Source: Klenkia terrae
GTDB lineage: Bacteria > Actinomycetota > Actinomycetes > Mycobacteriales > Geodermatophilaceae
Assembly: GCF_900491935.1 (NCBI RefSeq)
Contig: NZ_UEXK01000004.1
Coordinates: 2,072,865-2,129,866 of the forward strand
Length of the DNA stretch: 57,002 nucleotides
Direction of reading: 5' to 3'
In this document: in pieces, positions 7,933-20,631 of the stretch
Layout of the letters: each line of letters begins with the position of its first letter
Numbering within the stretch: the stretch's first letter is position 1
Position numbers and translations under genes: made by a program
Notes under the pieces: model-generated
Database searches by the model: none
What the model saw: only the letters and a program-made list of their open reading frames with translations
Told to the model about the DNA's origin: nothing

Positions 7933-8757
7933 GTGACCACGCACACGGACGGGCACCTCTCCACCGGGCAGTACTGGCAGGGGTGGGTGCCCGACGAGGT
8001 GACCGGGGTCGTCGTCCTGGTGCACGGGCTGCACGAGCACGGCGGCCGGTACGCCCACGTCGCGGAGCGGCTGACCGCGGCCGGCTACGCCTCGTACGCC
8101 GCCGACCACCCGGGGCACGGCCGGTCCCCGGGCAGCCGCGGCAACATCGGCTCGATGGCCGCGACGGTGGCCGGCGTCGACGAGTTGGCCGGGCTCGCCC
8201 TAGGCCGGCACGCCGGCGTCCCGCTGTTCGTCTACGGGCACAGCATGGGCGGGCTGGTCGCCGCCCAGCACCTCACCGGGTCGCCGTCGGTGCCCGTCCG
8301 CGGTGCCGTGCTGTCGGCCGCGGCGCTGGACCTCAGCTCGGCCAGCCCGCTGCAGCAGAAGGTCGCCCCGGTGCTGGGCCGGCTGCTGCCCGACCTCGGC
8401 GTCCTCACCCTGGACGCCGACGCGGTCAGCCGGGACCCCGCCGTCGTGGCCGCCTACCGGGCCGACCCGCTGAACCGGATGGGCAAGGTCCGGGCCCGCA
8501 CCGGCGCCGAGATGATCACCACGGTGGCCGCGATGCCCGAGCGGCTGCGCCGGCTGACCATGCCGGTGCTGGTGATCCACGGCGGTGCCGACCGGCTGGT
8601 CCCGCCGGCGGCGAGCGAGTTCGTGGCCTCGACGGTCTCCTCGGCCGACGTCACGCACACCGTCTACGACGGGCTGTTCCACGAGCCGCACAACGAGCCC
8701 GAGCGGGACCGGGTCCTGGACGACGTCGTCGGCTGGCTCGACGCGCACCGGGTCTGA
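7933..8757 (+). CDS. alpha/beta hydrolase, monoacylglycerol lipase-like
   Basis: Serine hydrolase of 274 residues resembling the monoglyceride lipase family (mycobacterial Rv0183-type). Visible are the oxyanion segment VLVHGLHEHGGRY, the nucleophile elbow GHSMGG with Ser104, the acid Asp221 in IHGGADRLVP, and the catalytic His251 in GLFHEPHNE. Full-length alpha/beta fold with the Hydrolase_4 layout. No signal peptide is visible, so it is probably cytosolic or membrane-associated. The GTG at 7933 gives a canonical N terminus. Likely substrate is monoacylglycerol (family inference). Monocistronic; it converges with the AEC transporter across a small hairpin. Confidence 0.88.
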   Translation: MTTHTDGHLSTGQYWQGWVPDEVTGVVVLVHGLHEHGGRYAHVAERLTAAGYASYAADHPGHGRSPGSRGNIGSMAATVAGVDELAGLALGRHAGVPLFVYGHSMGGLVAAQHLTGSPSVPVRGAVLSAAALDLSSASPLQQKVAPVLGRLLPDLGVLTLDADAVSRDPAVVAAYRADPLNRMGKVRARTGAEMITTVAAMPERLRRLTMPVLVIHGGADRLVPPAASEFVASTVSSADVTHTVYDGLFHEPHNEPERDRVLDDVVGWLDAHRV

Positions 8758-8760
8758 CCA

Positions 8761-8792
8761 TCTCTACGGCTGTCTAAGTTCGAGCGTAGAGA
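8761..8792. terminator. hairpin between convergent genes
   Basis: TCTCTACG (8761-8768) pairs perfectly with CGTAGAGA (8785-8792) around a 16-nt loop. It lies 3 bp after the hydrolase stop and 14 bp before the end of the convergent AEC gene. It could act in both directions. There is no U-run, as is common in high-GC actinobacteria. Confidence 0.45.
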
Positions 8793-8805
8793 GCCCGAGA
8801 CCGGT

Positions 8806-9726
8806 CTAGGGACCGAGCAGGGCCGCGACCAGCAGCAGCACCGGGATCGAGCCGGCGGTCGTCACGGTGACGGTCTGCTGCGCCATCCGCTCGCCCACGC
8901 CGTAGGCGACCGCGTAGGTGTAGACGTTCTGCGCGGTCGGCAACGCGGCCAGGACCACGATGACGAACAGCTCGGCGCCGCCGATGCCCACCGCGGCCGC
9001 CAGCGCCCAGGCCACCCCGGGCATGACCAGCAGCTTGAGCGCCGAGGCCAGCAGCACCGCGCGCCGCTCGGGTCCGCGGCCGGGCACCGGGGCGCCGTGC
9101 AGGGAGACCCCGTAGGCGAGCAGCACCGCGGGGACGGCGAAGGAGGCCAGCAGCTCCAGCGGGTCCAGCACCAGGTCGGGCACGGTCCAGCCCAGACCGC
9201 TGACCACGAGGCCCAGCACCGAGGCGATCAGCACCGGGTTGCGGAACGGGGTGGTCAGCCGGACCCAGCGGGCGGTGCCGTCGTCGGGTCCGGTGAGGTC
9301 GAGCAGCACCACCGCGACCGGCACGAGCACCACGAGCTGGAACAGCAGCAGCGGCGCGACCAGGGTGGCGTCGCCGAGCACGTGGACGGCGATCGGGATG
9401 CCCAGGTTGGCGGAGTTGACCATGCCGGCGCCCAGCGCCCCGATCGTCGTCCGACCGGCGCCCCAGCGGCGGACGACGCCCACGACCCCCATCGCCCCGG
9501 CGCACACCAGGGCGGCCGCGGAGGTGACCCAGAGGGTGCCGGAGAAGATCTGCCCCAGGTCGGCCGCGACCAGCGTGGTGAACAGCAGCGCGGGCGTGGC
9601 GACCCGGAACGAGGTCTGCGCCAGGACCAGCTGCGCGCCCGGCGGCAGCACCCCGCGCCGGGCGGCCAGGTACCCCACGGCGATGACCACCCCGATCACC
9701 ACGAACCCGGTGAGCACCCCCGTCAC
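8806..9726 (-). CDS. AEC family transporter
   Basis: Membrane transporter of 306 residues in the auxin efflux carrier (AEC) family, built of about ten hydrophobic segments in two halves. Family-like motifs are GMVNSANLGIPIAVHVLGD in the first half and VLAALPTAQNVYTYAVAYG in the second, both near the helix breaks. Members export or exchange small organic anions such as malate; the substrate here is unknown. The start is placed at GTG 9726 (VTGVLTGFVVIGV) because family proteins begin with this first helix. A GTG at 9768 would add 14 charged residues. The upstream intergenic region carries the duplicated 130-bp repeat. Confidence 0.85.
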   Translation of the reverse strand: MTGVLTGFVVIGVVIAVGYLAARRGVLPPGAQLVLAQTSFRVATPALLFTTLVAADLGQIFSGTLWVTSAAALVCAGAMGVVGVVRRWGAGRTTIGALGAGMVNSANLGIPIAVHVLGDATLVAPLLLFQLVVLVPVAVVLLDLTGPDDGTARWVRLTTPFRNPVLIASVLGLVVSGLGWTVPDLVLDPLELLASFAVPAVLLAYGVSLHGAPVPGRGPERRAVLLASALKLLVMPGVAWALAAAVGIGGAELFVIVVLAALPTAQNVYTYAVAYGVGERMAQQTVTVTTAGSIPVLLLVAALLGP

Positions 9727-9842
9727 GCGCAGGAGTCTGCCCCGACCGGGGTTCCGGCCCTCATCCACGCCCCGCAGCGGGCGGGAACCGTGCTCCCGGT
9801 GCCATCAGGTGCCCGGAGGGTCCCCGTGCACCGGGCGCGGCC

Positions 9843-9972
9843 GTCGAGTGTGCGCTGAGCGCTGTTCCCAGCACCCGCAGACCGCGCTGAGTGCTCACTC
9901 GACGCCGCCGGCCGTCGATCGACGCTCACCGATCACTCCGGCTCAGGGGTGATCGATACCCGTCGATCGACG
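9843..9972. repeat. structured intergenic repeat, unit 1
   Basis: First copy of a 130-bp module in the 414-bp gap between divergent AEC and VTT genes; I see no gene in this gap. It contains two stem-loops. Hairpin A has 19-nt arms at 9843-9861 and 9885-9903. Hairpin B is the pair CGATCACTCC / GGGGTGATCG (9930-9939, 9946-9955) nested between two copies of the palindrome CGTCGATCGACG (9913-9924, 9961-9972). Unit 2 begins 151 bp further on. By hand alignment the two units differ at about 17 of 130 positions. Confidence 0.8.
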
Positions 9973-9993
9973 ACTGGCGCGGGGGAAGTGGGC

Positions 9994-10123
9994 GCCGAGT
10001 GCGCGCTGAGCGCTGTTCCCAGCCCCCGCAGACAGCACTGAGCGCGCACCCGACGCCGCAGGCCGTCGATCGACGTTCACCGATCACTCCGGCCCAGGAG
10101 TGATCAGCAGCCGTCGACCGACG
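9994..10123. repeat. structured intergenic repeat, unit 2
   Basis: Second copy of the 130-bp module, ending 17 bp before the VTT start codon. Hairpin A arms are 9994-10012 and 10036-10054. Hairpin B arms GATCACTCC / GGAGTGATC (10082-10090, 10097-10105) are a perfect match here. The outer palindromes are at 10064-10075 and 10112-10123, the second with one change. Several differences from unit 1 restore pairing in the stems: a T-T mismatch becomes C-G and a G-T becomes G-C. That suggests the structure is maintained. Confidence 0.8.
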
Positions 10124-10140
10124 GCGGGGAGGATGGGGGC

Positions 10141-10812
10141 GTGGGGGAGCGGATCAGCGCGGCGCAGGCGGTGCGGGCCGGGTTGCTGGTGGCGATCCTG
10201 CTCGCCGGCGCCGTCGTCGCGCTGACCACCGACCTGCCCACGGTCGACCAGCTGCGCGGCCGGGTCGCCGACGCCGGATTGCTGGGCTGGGCAGCCGTCG
10301 CCGGGGGCACCGCGGTCGCCGTCCTGGCGCCGATCCCGCGGACGGCGCTGGCCCTGCTGACCGGGATCCTGCTGGGGTTCTGGCCGGGGCTGCTGGTCAC
10401 CGTGGTCGGCGCCCTGCTGGGCGCGCTGATGGGGTTCGGGCTGGGTCGGGCGCTGGGCCGGGACACCCTGCTGCGGCTGGCCGGCCCCCGGCTGCGCAGG
10501 GCCGACCAGCTGGCGATGGAGCGCGGGTTCACCGCCGTCCTGCTCGCCCGGCTGACGCCGGTGCTGCCGTTCTTCCTGGTCAACTACGCCGGCGGGCTGT
10601 CCGGCGTCCGGCTGCCGGTCTACCTGGCGGCGACGTTCGTCGGGCTGCTGCCGGGGGCGGTGTTCAACGTGGCGGTCGGCTCGGTGGCCGGGTCGCTGGG
10701 AGAGTGGGGGCTGGCCATCGCGGTCGGGCCGGTGGTCGTGGTCGGCGTGGTCCTCGGCGTCCGGTGGTGGCGGCGTCGAGGTCGGTCTGCGGCCGTCTCG
10801 GTCGAGGGCTAG
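10141..10812 (+). CDS. TVP38/TMEM64 (VTT/DedA-like) membrane protein
   Basis: Integral membrane protein of 223 residues with the VTT (SNARE-associated) domain shared by the TVP38/TMEM64 family. Characteristic segments are the first long helix (about 12-30), the re-entrant stretch LLTGILLGFWPGLLVTVVGALLGA and the motif ARLTPVLPFFLVNYAGGLSGV, followed by a helix around LPGAVFNVAVGS. Family members are implicated in lipid scrambling or undecaprenyl-phosphate recycling; the role here is not established. The GTG start lies immediately after the 130-bp repeat unit. The stop overlaps the end of the convergent gene by 4 bp. Confidence 0.85.
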   Translation: MGERISAAQAVRAGLLVAILLAGAVVALTTDLPTVDQLRGRVADAGLLGWAAVAGGTAVAVLAPIPRTALALLTGILLGFWPGLLVTVVGALLGALMGFGLGRALGRDTLLRLAGPRLRRADQLAMERGFTAVLLARLTPVLPFFLVNYAGGLSGVRLPVYLAATFVGLLPGAVFNVAVGSVAGSLGEWGLAIAVGPVVVVGVVLGVRWWRRRGRSAAVSVEG

Positions 10813-14706: not shown

Positions 14707-16047
14707 TCAGCGCTGCGGGCCGATGCCCTGCGCGTTCAGGCCCTCGATGATCCGGCTGGTCTCCTCGAAGCCGATCACCAGGATCGCGTCGGGGTTGAAC
14801 TCGACCATCTGGGAGACCTCGCTGTCGAAGTTCGCCGCCGTGGGGTCGTAGACCAGCGAGCGGATCGAGTCCTCGTCCAGCCCGTCGGAGATCAGGTCCG
14901 CGGCGGTGTTGTCGGCCAGGCCGGTGCCGTAGGGGTCGTTGAGAGCGAGGATGCCGACGGTGTTGTTGCCGTCCCCGCCGATCAGGTCGGCCAACGCGCG
15001 GGCCTGCAGCGTGTCCGGCGGCACCGTGCGGAAGAACAGCCCGTTGTCCGCGTAGTCGGTGAGGCGGTCCGAGGTGCTGGCCGGGCTGATCATCGCGACA
15101 CCGGCCTGGGTGACCGCGTCGATGACGGTCAGCGTGACGCCGGAGGACGACGCCCCGACGATCACGTTCGCCCCCTGCTGGAGCAGCCGGTCGGCGGTCT
15201 GGGTGGCGGTGTCGGTGCTGGCGTCCCCCGAGTCGCCGGTGTTCAGCTGGACCGGGTTGCCCAGCACCCCGCCGGCGGCGTTCACGTCGGTGACGGCCAG
15301 GGTGAGCGCGGCGATCTGCTGCGGCCCCTGGTAGGCCAGGCTGCCGGTCTGCGGGGTGAGGCTGCCGATGACCAGCGGCGCCCCGGTGGTGCCGGGCGCG
15401 GCCGGGGCCGGGCCCTCGTCGGTGGCGGCGTCGTCGATGTCGCCGGCCTGGACGAACTCCCGGGCGTCCTCGTCGATCGTCCCGTCCTCGGTGAAGCTCT
15501 CGATCGCGAAGCTGGCCACCGAGGGCTCACCGGGGTCGGTGAAGGCCAGCGGGCCGTTGACGCCGTCGTAGTCCGGGTTGCCGCCGCCGGCGACCACCTC
15601 GCTGCACTCGGCGAACGTCGTGCAGGCCTCGCCGCCGAAGGTCACCCCGTTGACGTAGGGACCCCAGACGGTGGCCTCGTTGCTGCCGGCCAGCTGGGCG
15701 GCCAGCGAGGCGATCACGACCGCGTCGTAGGTCTCGGCGGCGGTGTTGAAGTTGGTCAGCGAGGGGTCGACGCCGAGCAGCCGCTCCCGGAACTCCGGGC
15801 CGATGTCGGTGAGGAGCACGGTGCCGCGCATGCCGGCCAGCGCGCCGGGGGAGTCCGCGAAGTCCTCGCCCAGCCCGTTGTTCATGTTGCCGTCGGCGCC
15901 GTAGACGTTGACCTGCTTGGTGCCGTCGTCCGCGGTCGAGGCACCGGCGCTGTCGGTGTCCGAGGACCCGCTGCCGCACGCCGAGGCGGCCAGCAGGACG
16001 ACGGCGCCGAGGACGAGCGTCCGTCCGAGGGTGGGGTGTGTCCGCAT
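14707..16047 (-). CDS. branched-chain-amino-acid-type binding lipoprotein, circularly permuted
   Basis: Lipoprotein of 446 residues from the LIV-type (periplasmic-binding type I) substrate-binding family, but with the two halves in reversed order. After the signal peptide and lipobox Cys24 (AASAC), residues 45-205 match what is normally the C-terminal half (QVNVYGADGN, NTAAETYDAVV, GGEACTTFAEC, NPDYDGVNGPLAF, GEPSVASF). A Pro/Ala/Gly linker (about 206-223) follows. Residues 224-445 match the usual N-terminal half (PLVIGSLTPQTGSLAYQGP, DTATQTADRLL, AILVIGFEETSRII) and end at GIGPQR. The reading frame is intact, and AGGAG precedes the ATG. It lies 90 bp downstream of the SDR gene on the same strand. 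No permease or ATPase gene is nearby. Confidence 0.85.
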   Translation of the reverse strand: MRTHPTLGRTLVLGAVVLLAASACGSGSSDTDSAGASTADDGTKQVNVYGADGNMNNGLGEDFADSPGALAGMRGTVLLTDIGPEFRERLLGVDPSLTNFNTAAETYDAVVIASLAAQLAGSNEATVWGPYVNGVTFGGEACTTFAECSEVVAGGGNPDYDGVNGPLAFTDPGEPSVASFAIESFTEDGTIDEDAREFVQAGDIDDAATDEGPAPAAPGTTGAPLVIGSLTPQTGSLAYQGPQQIAALTLAVTDVNAAGGVLGNPVQLNTGDSGDASTDTATQTADRLLQQGANVIVGASSSGVTLTVIDAVTQAGVAMISPASTSDRLTDYADNGLFFRTVPPDTLQARALADLIGGDGNNTVGILALNDPYGTGLADNTAADLISDGLDEDSIRSLVYDPTAANFDSEVSQMVEFNPDAILVIGFEETSRIIEGLNAQGIGPQR

Positions 16048-16137: not shown

Positions 16138-16830
16138 TCAGCGCATCGCGGCGCCGCCGGCGATGACGACCGTCTCTCCGGTGACGTAGCCCGGCTCCAC
16201 CAGGCGCTGCACCCAGACGGCGATCTCGTCGGGCTGGGCGACCCGGCCCAGCGGGATGCCCGCGGCCGCGGCCGCCATCCGGCCGGTGGCCGCGTTGCCC
16301 GGGGTGTCGACCCACCCCGGCGCCACCGCGTTGACGACGATCTGGTCGGGTGCCAGCTCGATGGCCAGGGACTTGGTGATCGACAGGACGGCGGCCTTGG
16401 AGGCGCTGTAGAGCAGTTGCCCGGGGGAGACGGCGAACGCGTCGACCGAGGCGAAGTTGACCACCGCGCCGCCTCCCGCGGCCCGCAGGTGCGGGACGGC
16501 CGCGGCGGTTACGTTCAGGGTGCCGAGCACGTTGACGTCGAAGACCCGCCGGTAGAGGTCGTCGGTGTAGTCGTCGAGCCGGGTGGGCGGGTAGATCCCG
16601 GCGGCGTTGACCACGGCGGTGAGGCGGTGGCCGTCCAGCGCCCCGTCGACCGCCGCCGTGACCAGCGCGCGGTCCACCACGTCGGCGACCACCGGCACGA
16701 CGGCCGGCCCGGTCGCCTGCACCGCAGCGCGGTCCAGCGCCAGCACCCGCCAGCCGGCCCCGGCCAGCCGCTCCACGACGGTGGCGCCCATCCCGCTGGC
16801 GGCGCCGGTCACCAGCACGGTGTCGGTCAT
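16138..16830 (-). CDS. SDR family NAD(P)-dependent oxidoreductase
   Basis: Classical short-chain dehydrogenase of 230 residues. The nucleotide-binding TGAASGMGA motif is at 8-16, NAAG follows at the end of the fourth strand, and the catalytic Ser and YxxxK are visible in NFASVDAFAVSPGQLLYSASKAA. The PGWVDTPGN segment follows the active site. ATG at 16830 with AGGAGG upstream. The start overlaps the stop of the FMO gene (ATGA), so the two enzymes are probably made together and may act in one oxidation pathway. The substrate is not evident. Alternative role: redox of a ketone or alcohol produced by the neighbouring monooxygenase (inference). Confidence 0.88.
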   Translation of the reverse strand: MTDTVLVTGAASGMGATVVERLAGAGWRVLALDRAAVQATGPAVVPVVADVVDRALVTAAVDGALDGHRLTAVVNAAGIYPPTRLDDYTDDLYRRVFDVNVLGTLNVTAAAVPHLRAAGGGAVVNFASVDAFAVSPGQLLYSASKAAVLSITKSLAIELAPDQIVVNAVAPGWVDTPGNAATGRMAAAAAGIPLGRVAQPDEIAVWVQRLVEPGYVTGETVVIAGGAAMR

Positions 16831-18122
16831 CGGAGGGCCTCCTGCAGGGGTGCGGTGCGGTCGGTGGTCGGGAGGGCATCCAGCACCCGGTGGGCACGGG
16901 CGGTCGCCGCGGTCCACAGCGGTCGCAGCACGTCGACCCGGTCGTCGGGGGCCCCGGCGGCCAGCAGCTCGGTGTGCAGCGGGCGGGCCGTCCGGCCCTC
17001 GAGCCCGAGCAGCCGGGCGACGAGGGCCGCCTGTGCGCTGAAGACCGGGAACTGCGCGCCGCGCGGGCTCGCCAGCCCGACCGTGTAGAGCCGGGAGGTC
17101 CCGACCGGCACGACCATGCCGCCGACCCGCAGCGGCACCCCGCCGGACCAGGTGAGCTGCTCCGGGGCCAGGAACGGCAGGCTGACCCGGAAGCCGGTCG
17201 CCCACAGCACGGTGTCGAACTCCGCCGAGGTGTCGTCGGCGAAGAAGACCTCCCGGCCGGAGACGTCCACGACGCCGGGCCGGGCGGTGATCCGGCCGTG
17301 CTGCAGCCAGTACAGCAACAGGTCGTTGACCACCGGCAGCTGCTGGTTCAGGTTCCGGGTGACCGGCTCCTGCAGGCCCGGGTAGTCCGACGGGCTGCCC
17401 ACCGAGATCCGCACCAGGGCCCGCTGCACACGCTCGGCCGCCCAGCCGGGCAGCTTGGCCAGGAACGGGAGCTGGTTGCGGCCGCGGCCGAAGAAGGTCT
17501 TGGGCTGGAACACCTGGCCGTGCCGCATCGCGATCGAGACGTCCAGCCGGGCGTTGGCGGCGTCCACGGCCAGGTCGCAGCCGCTGTTGCCGGCCCCGAC
17601 GACCAGCACGCGGGTGCCCTCGACGTCGGCGACCGACCGGTACTGCGAGGAGTGCAGCGACCGGCCGGTGAAGTCCGCGGCCATCGCGGGCAGCCTGGCG
17701 TCCCAGTGGTGGCCGTTGGCGACGACGACGGCGTCGAAGTGCTCGGTCCCCGACCCCGTGGTGACGTCCCAGCCGGAGACGCCGTCGTCCGGGCTGGTGA
17801 CGGCGGTGACCTCGGTGCCGAACCGGACGTGTGCGAGCAGGTCGTGCTCGGCGGCGAAGGCGTCCAGGTAGTCGATCACCTGCTCACGGCTGGGGAAGAG
17901 CGGGTAGTGCGCGGGCATCGGGACGCCGTCGAAGCAGGAGACGTCCCGCGGGGTGATCAGGTGCAGCGCCTCGTAGTCGGTGTGCCAGTGCCCACCAGCC
18001 CGGTCGCTGCGGTCGTGGGCCACCACGTCGTGCCCGGCGTCGCGGAGGACGCGGACGGCCTCCAGGCCGGCGGCCCCGGCGCCGATCACGCAGATGCGCT
18101 GCGCGGTGGTGCTGCTGGGCAT
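16827..18122 (-). CDS. flavin-containing monooxygenase
   Basis: Class B flavoprotein monooxygenase of 431 residues. It has an N-terminal FAD fold (VIGAGAAGLEAV), the FMO-type fingerprint FTGRSLHSSQY and a second Rossmann motif for NADPH (VVGAGNSGCDLA). The later LWATGFRVSLPFL is the ATGF segment typical of this family. It would hydroxylate, N-oxidise or Baeyer-Villiger oxidise an unknown substrate with O2 and NADPH. The ATG at 18122 is preferred over an upstream start that would add 31 residues before the FAD motif. First gene of the FMO-SDR pair, downstream of the LysR regulator on the same strand. Confidence 0.88.
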   Translation of the reverse strand: MPSSTTAQRICVIGAGAAGLEAVRVLRDAGHDVVAHDRSDRAGGHWHTDYEALHLITPRDVSCFDGVPMPAHYPLFPSREQVIDYLDAFAAEHDLLAHVRFGTEVTAVTSPDDGVSGWDVTTGSGTEHFDAVVVANGHHWDARLPAMAADFTGRSLHSSQYRSVADVEGTRVLVVGAGNSGCDLAVDAANARLDVSIAMRHGQVFQPKTFFGRGRNQLPFLAKLPGWAAERVQRALVRISVGSPSDYPGLQEPVTRNLNQQLPVVNDLLLYWLQHGRITARPGVVDVSGREVFFADDTSAEFDTVLWATGFRVSLPFLAPEQLTWSGGVPLRVGGMVVPVGTSRLYTVGLASPRGAQFPVFSAQAALVARLLGLEGRTARPLHTELLAAGAPDDRVDVLRPLWTAATARAHRVLDALPTTDRTAPLQEALR

Positions 18123-18218: not shown

Positions 18219-19160
18219 TCAGCCTCTGGCCGGACCGCCGTCCGCTGCCTGCTGCAGCGCCTGGGTGTGGGTGTGCGCCAGGTCCATGAACACCCTGGTG
18301 GCGGGGCTGAGCACGCCCCCGGTGCGGGTGATGAAGGCGAACCGCTCGACCACGGGTGGGTCCAGCGGCACCCAGTGCAACCGGCCGGGGTACCCGGGCC
18401 AGCGGGTGACCAGGTAGGACACCAGCGAGTCGCCGAGACCGTGCGAGGCCAGCTCCACGGCGGCGGTCTGGAACTCGACCTCGATCTGCGGCCGGAGCGT
18501 CACCCTGGCCTCCCGCGCCCGGTCGGTGAGCACCCGGCGCAGCGGGTCCTCGGCACCCCAGCGGGCCTCGGACAGGATGAGCGGGGCGTCCGCGAGCTGC
18601 TCGATGGTGACCGGCCCCCGGGTCCGGTCGCCGTCGGTGCTCACGTAGACGACCGAGTCGACGAGCACCGGGGGACCGACGTCCAGACCGCGGTCGTCGA
18701 CCGGCAGCTGGACCAACCCGGCCTCGAGTTCGCCCGCGCGCACCTGTGCGGCCACCTCGGAGCTGTTCAGCCCCACGACCCGGGTGACGACACCGGGGTA
18801 CCGCGACCGGAAGTCGCTGATCAGTGCACTGAGCAGGTAGAGGTGCGCGCTGGAGAAGGTGCCGAAGCTGACCGTGCCGCCCGACATCTCGCGGACGTGC
18901 CGGGCGCTCTCGGTGAGCGCGGTGGCGTCGGCCAGCGTGCGCCGGGCCGCGGGCAGCAGGGCCCGGCCGGCCTCGGTGAGCTGCAGCCGTCGGTTGGTGC
19001 GGACGAACAAGGTCACGCCGAGGGTGTGCTCGAGCCGCCGGACCTGCTCGGACAGGCTGGGCTGGGCGACGTGCGTGGCCTCGGCAGCGGCCACGAAGGA
19101 ACCGTGCTCGACCGCGGCGACGAAGTAGGCGAGCTGCTGGAGGGTCGGCAGCTGGGCCAC
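18219..19160 (-). CDS. LysR family transcriptional regulator
   Basis: LTTR of 313 residues. The N-terminal winged helix is canonical (LQQLAYFVAAVEHGSFVAAAEATHVAQPSLSEQVRRLEHTLGVTLFVR), followed by a linker helix and a PBP-type effector domain from about residue 92 (GTVSFGTFSSAHLYLLSALISDFRSRYPGV). GTG start at 19160. It lies 96 bp upstream of the FMO-SDR genes on the same strand, so those are its most likely targets. The arrangement is tandem rather than the usual divergent one. The effector is unknown. The upstream gap contains a parS-like palindrome. Confidence 0.9.
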   Translation of the reverse strand: MAQLPTLQQLAYFVAAVEHGSFVAAAEATHVAQPSLSEQVRRLEHTLGVTLFVRTNRRLQLTEAGRALLPAARRTLADATALTESARHVREMSGGTVSFGTFSSAHLYLLSALISDFRSRYPGVVTRVVGLNSSEVAAQVRAGELEAGLVQLPVDDRGLDVGPPVLVDSVVYVSTDGDRTRGPVTIEQLADAPLILSEARWGAEDPLRRVLTDRAREARVTLRPQIEVEFQTAAVELASHGLGDSLVSYLVTRWPGYPGRLHWVPLDPPVVERFAFITRTGGVLSPATRVFMDLAHTHTQALQQAADGGPARG

Positions 19161-19248: not shown

Positions 19249-20631
19249 TCAGCTGGACGCGCGCTGCGCCAGCTCGGGCTCGGCGTCGGCGGACGGGCCG
19301 TGGCCGTCGTCGAGCATCGTGGTCTCGTCGAAGGGCCGGTCGCCGGCCAGCACGGCCTTCATCTGCTCGCGGTCCAGCTCGTGGGTCCAGGTGGCCACCA
19401 GCATGCAGGCGATCGCGTTGCCGGAGAAGTTGGTGACCGCGCGGGCCTCGGACATGAAGCGGTCGATGCCGACGATGAGGCCGACGCCGTCCAGCAGCTC
19501 GGGGCGGTGGGACTGCAGGCCGCCGGCCAGCGTGGCCAGCCCGGCGCCGGAGACGCCCGCCGCACCCTTCGAGGCGATGATCATGAACACCAGCAGGCTG
19601 ATCTGCTCGGGCAGGCTCAGCGGGTCGCCGAGCGCCTCGCCGATGAACAGCGACGCCATCGTCAGGTAGATCGCGGTGCCGTCGAGGTTGAACGAGTACC
19701 CGGTCGGGACGACGATGCCGGCGACGGGCTTGCTCACGCCGACGTGCTCCATCTTGGCGATCAGCCGGGGCAGCGCGGTCTCCGAGGACGAGGAGGAGAC
19801 GATCAGCAGGTACTCCCGCGCCAGGTACTTGAGGAACGTGAAGACGTTGATCCCCACGACCATCCGCAGGATGGTGCCGAGGAAGACGAAGACGAAGACC
19901 GCGCAGGTCAGGTAGAAGCCCAGCATCAGGATGCCCAGGCTCTTGAGGGCGTCGACGCCGGTGGCGCCGACGACCGCGGCGATGGCGCCGAAGGCACCGA
20001 TCGGGGCGACCCACATGATCATCGCCAGGATGCGGAAGACCAGCTTCTGCAGGTGGCCGATCCCGGTGAGGATCGGGGCGCCGGCCCGGCCCATGGCCTG
20101 CAGCGCGAAGCCCACCAGCAGCGCGATCAGCAGCGCCTGCAGCACCGACCCGCTGGTCAGCGAGGAGAGCAGGGTGGTCGGGATCAGCGACAGGATGAAC
20201 CCGGTCGTGCCCTCCGGGGCCTCCTCGGCCGACTCGGCGAGCAGGTCGGCACCGGCGCCGCGCACCTCGTCGGTCAGCTGCAGCCCGTCACCCGGGTGCA
20301 GGATGTTGCCCACGACCAGGCCGATGGCCAGCGCCACCGTCGACATCGCGATGAAGTAGCCCAGCGCCAGGCCGCCGATCCGGCCGACCTGCGCCGCCTG
20401 CCGGATGGCCCCGATGCCCAGCACGATCGTGCAGAAGATGACCGGCGCGATGATCATCTTGATCAGGCCGACGAACGCGGTGCCCAGCCACTTGAGGCTG
20501 ACGCCGAACTCGGGGAAGACCAGCCCGACGACGATGCCGGCGACGACCGCGGCGATCACCGCGATGTAGAGCCAGTGCGTCTTGTCCCGCTTCTGGCGGG
20601 GTGCGCCGTCGAGGGGTGTCTGCTGTGCCAT
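19249..20631 (-). CDS. dctA: dicarboxylate/cation symporter, DctA type
   Basis: Secondary transporter of 460 residues of the dicarboxylate/amino acid:cation symporter family (DAACS). The Ser-rich re-entrant loop VSSSSSETALPRL, the PTGYSFNLDGTAIYLTMA segment and the SKGAAGVSGAG stretch are all present, as is the later RFMSEARAVTNFSGNAIA. These match DctA-type C4-dicarboxylate (succinate, fumarate, malate) uptake more than glutamate carriers; specificity remains an inference. Divergent from a DcuS/DcuR-type two-component system across a 180-bp gap with palindromes, so it is probably the main target of that system. A strong hairpin follows the stop. Confidence 0.88.
   Translation of the reverse strand: MAQQTPLDGAPRQKRDKTHWLYIAVIAAVVAGIVVGLVFPEFGVSLKWLGTAFVGLIKMIIAPVIFCTIVLGIGAIRQAAQVGRIGGLALGYFIAMSTVALAIGLVVGNILHPGDGLQLTDEVRGAGADLLAESAEEAPEGTTGFILSLIPTTLLSSLTSGSVLQALLIALLVGFALQAMGRAGAPILTGIGHLQKLVFRILAMIMWVAPIGAFGAIAAVVGATGVDALKSLGILMLGFYLTCAVFVFVFLGTILRMVVGINVFTFLKYLAREYLLIVSSSSSETALPRLIAKMEHVGVSKPVAGIVVPTGYSFNLDGTAIYLTMASLFIGEALGDPLSLPEQISLLVFMIIASKGAAGVSGAGLATLAGGLQSHRPELLDGVGLIVGIDRFMSEARAVTNFSGNAIACMLVATWTHELDREQMKAVLAGDRPFDETTMLDDGHGPSADAEPELAQRASS

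Follow-up and report, generated by a model that had tools for sequence, protein, structure and literature searches.

Results

The locus and its genes

The window, i.e. the whole stretch of 57,002 nucleotides from Klenkia terrae that was analysed, carries a gene for a LIV-type substrate-binding lipoprotein in which the two halves of the polypeptide chain are in swapped order. The gene occupies positions 14707-16047 of the minus strand (no strand had been given in the initial annotation, made from sequence alone), has an ATG start codon with AGGAG upstream, and its reading frame is open throughout. The features of this gene, and of the genes upstream of it, are as follows:

14707-16047, minus strand: permuted LIV-type substrate-binding lipoprotein gene, 446 aa (ORF, HMM and structure model)
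15979-16047, minus strand: lipoprotein signal peptide, residues 1-23, with the lipobox ending before Cys24 (script pattern search)
15916-15978, minus strand: Cys24 and a Ser/Gly/Asp-rich tether, residues 24-44 (pLDDT <50 to residue 41; fast-evolving)
15442-15915, minus strand: old C-terminal half, residues 45-202, model ~251 to 403 (HMM and AlphaFold)
15892-15894, minus strand: Asp52, near the new N-terminus, aligned with Asp226 of Atu2422 (3ipc) (alignment; D in 87/87 permuted rows, 85 of them distinct)
15373-15441, minus strand: linker from the old C-terminus to the old N-terminus, residues 203-225 (flanked by strands E197-202 and E226-231, block pLDDT 89-97)
14710-15372, minus strand: old N-terminal half (model to 253), residues 226-446, with GIGPQR at its end (Pfam, HMM and AlphaFold)
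16138-16830, minus strand: short-chain dehydrogenase (SDR), the upstream gene (Pfam; start codon by eye)
16827-18122, minus strand: FMO-like flavin monooxygenase, overlapping the SDR start (Pfam; start codon by eye)
18219-19160, minus strand: LysR-type regulator, head of the probable unit (Pfam; conserved in L150)

The SDR gene also adjoins the receptor gene at loci L003, L004, L005 and L150, while the FMO gene is conserved in L150, with partial coverage in L003-L005. The arrangement of LysR, FMO and SDR genes ahead of the receptor is conserved in Klenkia taihuensis. A sodium:dicarboxylate symporter gene (19249-20631, minus strand) lies upstream of the LysR-FMO-SDR-receptor unit and is also conserved in the latter species.

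Evidence for the swapped order of the halves

Membership of the LIV family is met by profile, as the Peripla_BP_6 model (PF13458) matches with 108.9 bits against a cut-off of 31.7. Its positions 2-217 of 343 align with residues 225-444, i.e. the C-terminal end of the protein. When searched alone, the front half gave no relevant Pfam model, only a single irrelevant match (E 0.1); the swap is therefore not provable by Pfam alone, and normal-order relatives were needed first. Using an HMM built from 33 such relatives, residues 19-173 of the mature window protein were matched to model positions 251-403 (E 4e-46) and residues 186-422 to positions 19-253 (E 3e-94). The normal order of halves in one chain is thus not met, and the protein was classed as a permuted derivative of the LIV-type proteins rather than an ordinary member. 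In a normal-order relative from genome G085, the segment matching query residues 207-444 is followed directly by that matching residues 46-191. Three Geodermatophilaceae genomes also carry a normal-order relative at approximately 40% identity.

These results show that the chain is a circularly permuted LIV-type (Peripla_BP_6) lipoprotein, the order being established by HMM and the fold predicted by model. The initial annotation had claimed a circular permutation (signal peptide, C-terminal half, linker, N-terminal half), and this claim held by HMM, relatives and predicted structure. The swapped HMM coordinates that it foresaw for the two halves were obtained, coordinates in normal order, which would have refuted it, were not seen, and the same permuted order was found in related genomes. 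The annotation had also named a misassembly at 15.4 kb as a possible refutation; this is ruled out, since a permuted paralogue in the same genome and orthologues in independent assemblies keep the swapped order, although this exclusion does not rest on read mapping. What was missed was the scale, as the swap is widespread in Geodermatophilaceae and repeated elsewhere in Actinomycetota.

Predicted structure and cut sites

An AlphaFold model of the window protein, based on 58 permuted sequences, reached a pLDDT of 89.2 and a pTM of 0.86, with disorder confined to residues 1-41; the normal-order relative L070, modelled from its own alignment, gave 89.7 and 0.85. Read by eye, the succession of strands and helices in one model is a rotation of that in the other. 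With Foldseek, whose alignments preserve chain order, the permuted model was aligned with its top four matches over 221-226 columns (TMt 0.51-0.57), and the normal-order control over 380-393 columns (TMt 0.78-0.81). The rotated order of LIV-type elements and the behaviour of Foldseek fit a permutation, without an order-independent superposition having been made.

Two cut sites approximately 20 residues apart are used. Of the 76 permuted rows, 70 have the end of the old N-terminal half at model column 250-254 (site 1) and the other six (L063-L068) at column 273-275 (site 2). The named loci L161 and L163 are of the second kind, and in site-2 receptors the DGN pocket motif lies close to the C-terminus. 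Several site-2 sequences derive from metagenome-assembled genomes (MAGs) or draft genomes. The site-2 receptor of L161 (an Acidimicrobiales MAG) has an odd Ser/Arg-rich linker stretch of 52 residues between its HMM matches, possibly reflecting a local frameshift or assembly error. The cut in the window protein maps to about residue 219 of LIV-BP, a region which we take to be in the C lobe. The cut between GIGPQR and QVNVYG proposed in the initial annotation held to within a few residues, while its 18-residue linker held in part: the linker is better defined as residues 203-225, from the last strand of the old C-terminal half to the first strand of the old N-terminal half. It is well ordered in the AlphaFold model, and its residues 206-223 show a dN of 0 against L003 and L004 and of 0.027 against L005.

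Conservation of the binding pocket and selective constraint

The positions aligned with S79, T102, Y150 and D226 of Atu2422 (3ipc) were examined as pocket positions. These four residues we take to be ligand contacts of Atu2422, no paper on them having been found in the open-access literature searched. The corresponding S302, T325, Y373 and D52 are invariant in 87/87 permuted rows (85 distinct), while the 86 normal-order rows have S, T, Y and D in 83, 86, 85 and 86 cases, respectively; among seven distant homologues the four positions vary. By alignment, the window protein has these four positions equivalent to those of Atu2422, in the absence of binding data. A lipobox-like pattern was found by script search in the window protein and in relatives of both orders.

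Against three orthologues from the same genus, dN/dS (NG86) was 0.15-0.25 for the N-terminal half and 0.33-0.50 for the C-terminal half, showing that the sequence is under constraint. The corresponding values against the operon paralogue L002 were 0.58 and 0.99, from which a fast change of the window gene after the split of the paralogues is inferred; dS was probably underestimated in so biased a genome. The initial view of a working rather than a broken gene is thus upheld by the open frame, the ribosome-binding site, the constraint and the retained pocket positions, though not by any expression data.

Distribution of both orders and conservation of the liv locus

A second permuted copy (L002), 65% identical to the first, is present in the same genome beside livHMGF. 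All nine genomes of the genus gave a match, eight with a permuted copy and one (G003) with a distant homologue only. By hand tally, and with at most 15 candidates scored per genome, 92 of 112 Geodermatophilaceae genomes carry a collinear permuted match across both halves; of the remainder, three have fragments only, ten have distant or partial matches only and seven have none. Within Nocardioidaceae, such a match was found in 10/149 genomes, and close normal-order sisters in this family are 72-74% identical in the N-terminal half. Normal-order relatives reach 55% identity over the N-terminal half among the limited number of candidates scored (no more than 4-5 per genome).

When loci L001-L149 were sorted by HMM, 76 proved permuted and 70 normal-order, with three partial ORFs (three duplicate loci omitted). 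Among named genomes, the best 80 of 441 relatives' loci comprise 29 permuted and 51 normal-order receptors, the closest match being that of K. taihuensis (90%). The arrangement of a receptor gene convergent to livFGMH is found repeatedly across the phylum, whichever order the receptor has, often with genes for an ANTAR regulator, pyruvate kinase and a GltD-like protein. At this conserved locus the normal order is found in Rhodococcus, Gordonia, Arthrobacter and Nonomuraea, and the permuted order in Geodermatophilaceae, part of Nocardioidaceae and deep actinobacterial MAGs. The conserved context of the orthologous locus is thereby shown.

Paralogue L002 itself faces livH-livM-livG-livF in convergent orientation and has an ANTAR response regulator gene behind it, and livHMGF is present beside the permuted paralogue in L050. 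At the Arthrobacter loci liv genes are present, with no ANTAR gene within 6 kb. In L050, a pyridoxal-dependent decarboxylase gene (8311-10230) adjoins the ANTAR response regulator gene, as it does in most Geodermatophilaceae loci with enough flank. In the operon LivH of L050 (728-2257), the permease is preceded by a CarboxypepD_reg domain (PF13620) at the N-terminus. A link between this extracytoplasmic domain and the permutation was considered and is not claimed, as BLAST found the domain with both receptor orders in many loci.

BLAST identified no liv genes in the window, so that the adjacency of livHMGF seen for L002 is not met by the window copy. Similarly, none were detected by BLAST near eight loci of group f16 (inferred from similarity to be Micromonosporaceae), nor nearby in 14 named permuted Micromonosporaceae loci. 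The permease link of such copies therefore rests on homology only.

Number and direction of origins

Trees were built on rows put into normal order. A quick tree of 108 of the 146 rows (most Geodermatophilaceae rows and the distant L113 and L115 omitted) needs five changes of the order label, four of them forced by starred branches. A careful tree of 67 hand-picked rows, without distant rows and several long branches, also needs five, all forced by starred branches (5-5 in bootstraps). Placing all permuted rows in one clade was 226 log-likelihood units worse (AU p 5.8e-124) and placing the site-1 rows in one clade 198 units worse (p 1.7e-68), while for the site-2 rows the loss was 21 units (p 0.012), a modest separation of the two site-2 groups. 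Two smaller groupings were named after the tree had been seen: Geodermatophilaceae (f1) with f16 was not rejected as one group (p 0.51), and Nocardioidaceae (f41) with f39/f49 was rejected (p 4e-4). Trees of either half alone, built to detect a fusion of different paralogues, need six changes each, with four and two forced; they are poorly resolved, especially that of the C-terminal half (132 columns), and were used solely for the case of L057 and L144 discussed below.

The permuted Nocardioidaceae receptors form a single clade (98/92), which branches from among the family's normal-order receptors; one of these permuted receptors has the same sequence as a named Marmoricola row. The motif YFVDGN is present in 10/10 permuted and 22/23 normal-order Nocardioidaceae rows; Geodermatophilaceae and f16 mostly have YGTDGN. 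As part of the best explanation, it is very likely that this one orthologous actinobacterial gene was permuted on at least four, and probably five, occasions at two loop sites. The likely groups are Geodermatophilaceae with f13 and f16, in which Geodermatophilaceae and f16 may represent one event, Nocardioidaceae, f39/f49, f122/f81, and f68. Change counts cannot separate gains from reversals, and the normal order was taken as ancestral on the grounds that seven more distant rows and the wider family show it. The normal order is the general state of LIV proteins.

Tandem copies and the probable route of permutation

Unfused tandem copies of normal-order receptors were found at 7/80 named loci (five Nonomuraea, an Acidimicrobiaceae MAG and a Nocardioidaceae MAG) and at L084. 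Two or three tandem receptor genes, all in normal order, stand at the liv locus in L193, L195, L196, L198, L202, L191, L229 and L084; L124 and L260 were not counted apart from L195 and L229. A second receptor in L125, at a branch length of 6, was not counted as a tandem duplicate. No fused or half-trimmed intermediate was present among 269 ORFs (some organisms repeated), none of which exceeded about 1.2 copies. The tandem-duplication origin suggested by the initial annotation thus has only the circumstantial support of the unfused copies; duplication and trimming is the likely, if unproven, route.

Discussion

Proposed mechanism

We propose that the gene encodes a functional lipid-anchored receptor of a LIV-type (type I) ABC transporter, in the absence of binding, expression or transport data. 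The permuted form would have arisen when the gene was duplicated in tandem at the locus and the first copy then lost its N-terminal half, the second its signal and C-terminal half. The signal peptide and lipid tether remain at the front and are now followed by the latter half of the C lobe (strand VNVYG, Asp52). A linker of 23 residues, well ordered in the model, connects the old C-terminus with the old N-terminus, and the cut marks the end of the chain. The usual bilobed fold is expected, which would close on an amino-acid-type ligand and deliver it to the LivHMGF permease. The window copy is an extra paralogue off the liv locus, in the LysR-FMO-SDR unit, probably serving the same permease or a related ligand. 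The swapped order, the predicted fold and the conserved pocket positions are shown; the ligand class, its binding, docking to the permease and the lobe that carries the anchor are inferred.

Alternative explanations

Several alternatives were weighed against this reading. An assembly or binning artefact can be all but dismissed: nothing was found in its support, and many assemblies made independently show the same order, among them those of named strains and a genome of the genus in one contig (G004), as does the second locus within this genome. That the window copy is a decaying, functionless extra paralogue is suggested by the lack of liv genes in the window, by the faster change of the C-terminal half and by its dN/dS of 0.99 against the operon paralogue; against this stand the open frame, ribosome-binding site and retained pocket positions, the dN/dS of 0.15-0.50 and near-zero linker dN among same-genus orthologues, and the neighbourhood conserved in K. 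taihuensis, making decay very improbable. A fusion of halves from two different paralogues (fission and fusion) could account for the lack of a fused tandem intermediate, and the nearest normal-order rows of the window protein do differ by half (L073/L070 for the N-terminal, L118/L119 for the C-terminal half), with identities close together. However, in the Nocardioidaceae case a single normal-order row, L144, is the closest to both halves of L057 (72% and 67%), and tandem copies are present at the locus, rendering such a fusion unlikely.

One permutation in the distant past, inherited or transferred horizontally ever since, with the apparent recurrence due to tree error, would explain why the site-1 cuts lie within about five model columns of each other, and Geodermatophilaceae plus f16 are compatible with one event. 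This view is hard to maintain, as one-clade trees are rejected by the 226 and 198 log-likelihood units given above, the permuted Nocardioidaceae nest in normal-order members and share their YFVDGN as opposed to YGTDGN elsewhere, and site 2 is a different cut. It is equally improbable that the permuted state was ancestral to part of the tree and the normal order regained several times. The tree counts changes and not their direction, and normal-order f8/f15 rows stand between permuted groups; yet the seven distant homologues are in normal order, like the known LIV family, and the two cut sites need separate gains in any case. The reading preferred here, a recurrent natural circular permutation of a working receptor with at least four origins, likely via tandem duplication and trimming, is thus held to be very likely, its ligand and selective advantage being untested.

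A bolder reading is that permutation is an easy, repeatedly used switch, favoured because it shifts the lipid anchor off the N lobe and onto the C lobe; this move would change the presentation of the tethered receptor to LivHM, and would explain why both cuts lie on the C lobe. We consider it less likely than not.

Significance and comparison with known systems

As a rule, a natural circular permutation comes to light when distant relatives are compared, long after it took place. A single orthologous gene that occupies a conserved locus in both orders, with close sisters surviving, constitutes a natural experiment on the origin and selection of a permutation, and such a receptor system bears on how receptor tethering affects ABC import. 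Additionally, Pfam annotation overlooks the moved half of permuted receptors, and the natural cut sites offer candidate positions for insertions in biosensor design.

The window protein shares with the LIV-type proteins (LivJ/LivK, Atu2422, 4gnr) the profile, the predicted fold, the pocket positions, the lipobox and, through its paralogue, the liv locus; it differs from them in its swapped halves, its new termini in the C lobe and the linkage of the old termini. No report of a permuted LIV-type receptor was found in the literature searched, subscription journals and preprints being outside its scope.

Circular permutation recurs in DNA methyltransferases. Duplication followed by a new start and stop has been proposed as the permutation route in these enzymes and in saposin/swaposin (PMC3320104); the same route is proposed here, and the LIV-type receptor adds the presence of both orders at one conserved locus together with unfused tandem copies.

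The permuted glucose-binding lipoprotein TpMglB-2 (Tp0684) binds its ligand with a conformational change, and its authors proposed a 'Type Ic / Cluster Bc' class of permuted ligand-binding proteins, of which it is the founding member, and speculated on anchoring (PMC4990184). Of the features of this class, a permuted type I fold is met by the window protein, while the reordering of the N lobe and an MglB-type sugar receptor are not, given its LIV-type profile. Both are lipoproteins and natural circular permutations of a type I binding protein. In TpMglB-2, however, the strands of the N lobe are reordered in an MglB-like glucose receptor, whereas the window protein is a LIV-type receptor cut in the C lobe. 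Furthermore, TpMglB-2 represents one related set with possible horizontal spread (PMC4990184), in contrast to the several origins and two sites of the LIV-type receptor. TpMglB-2 is the closest precedent; the LIV-type case involves the opposite lobe and a different receptor family, and the permutation arose there repeatedly.
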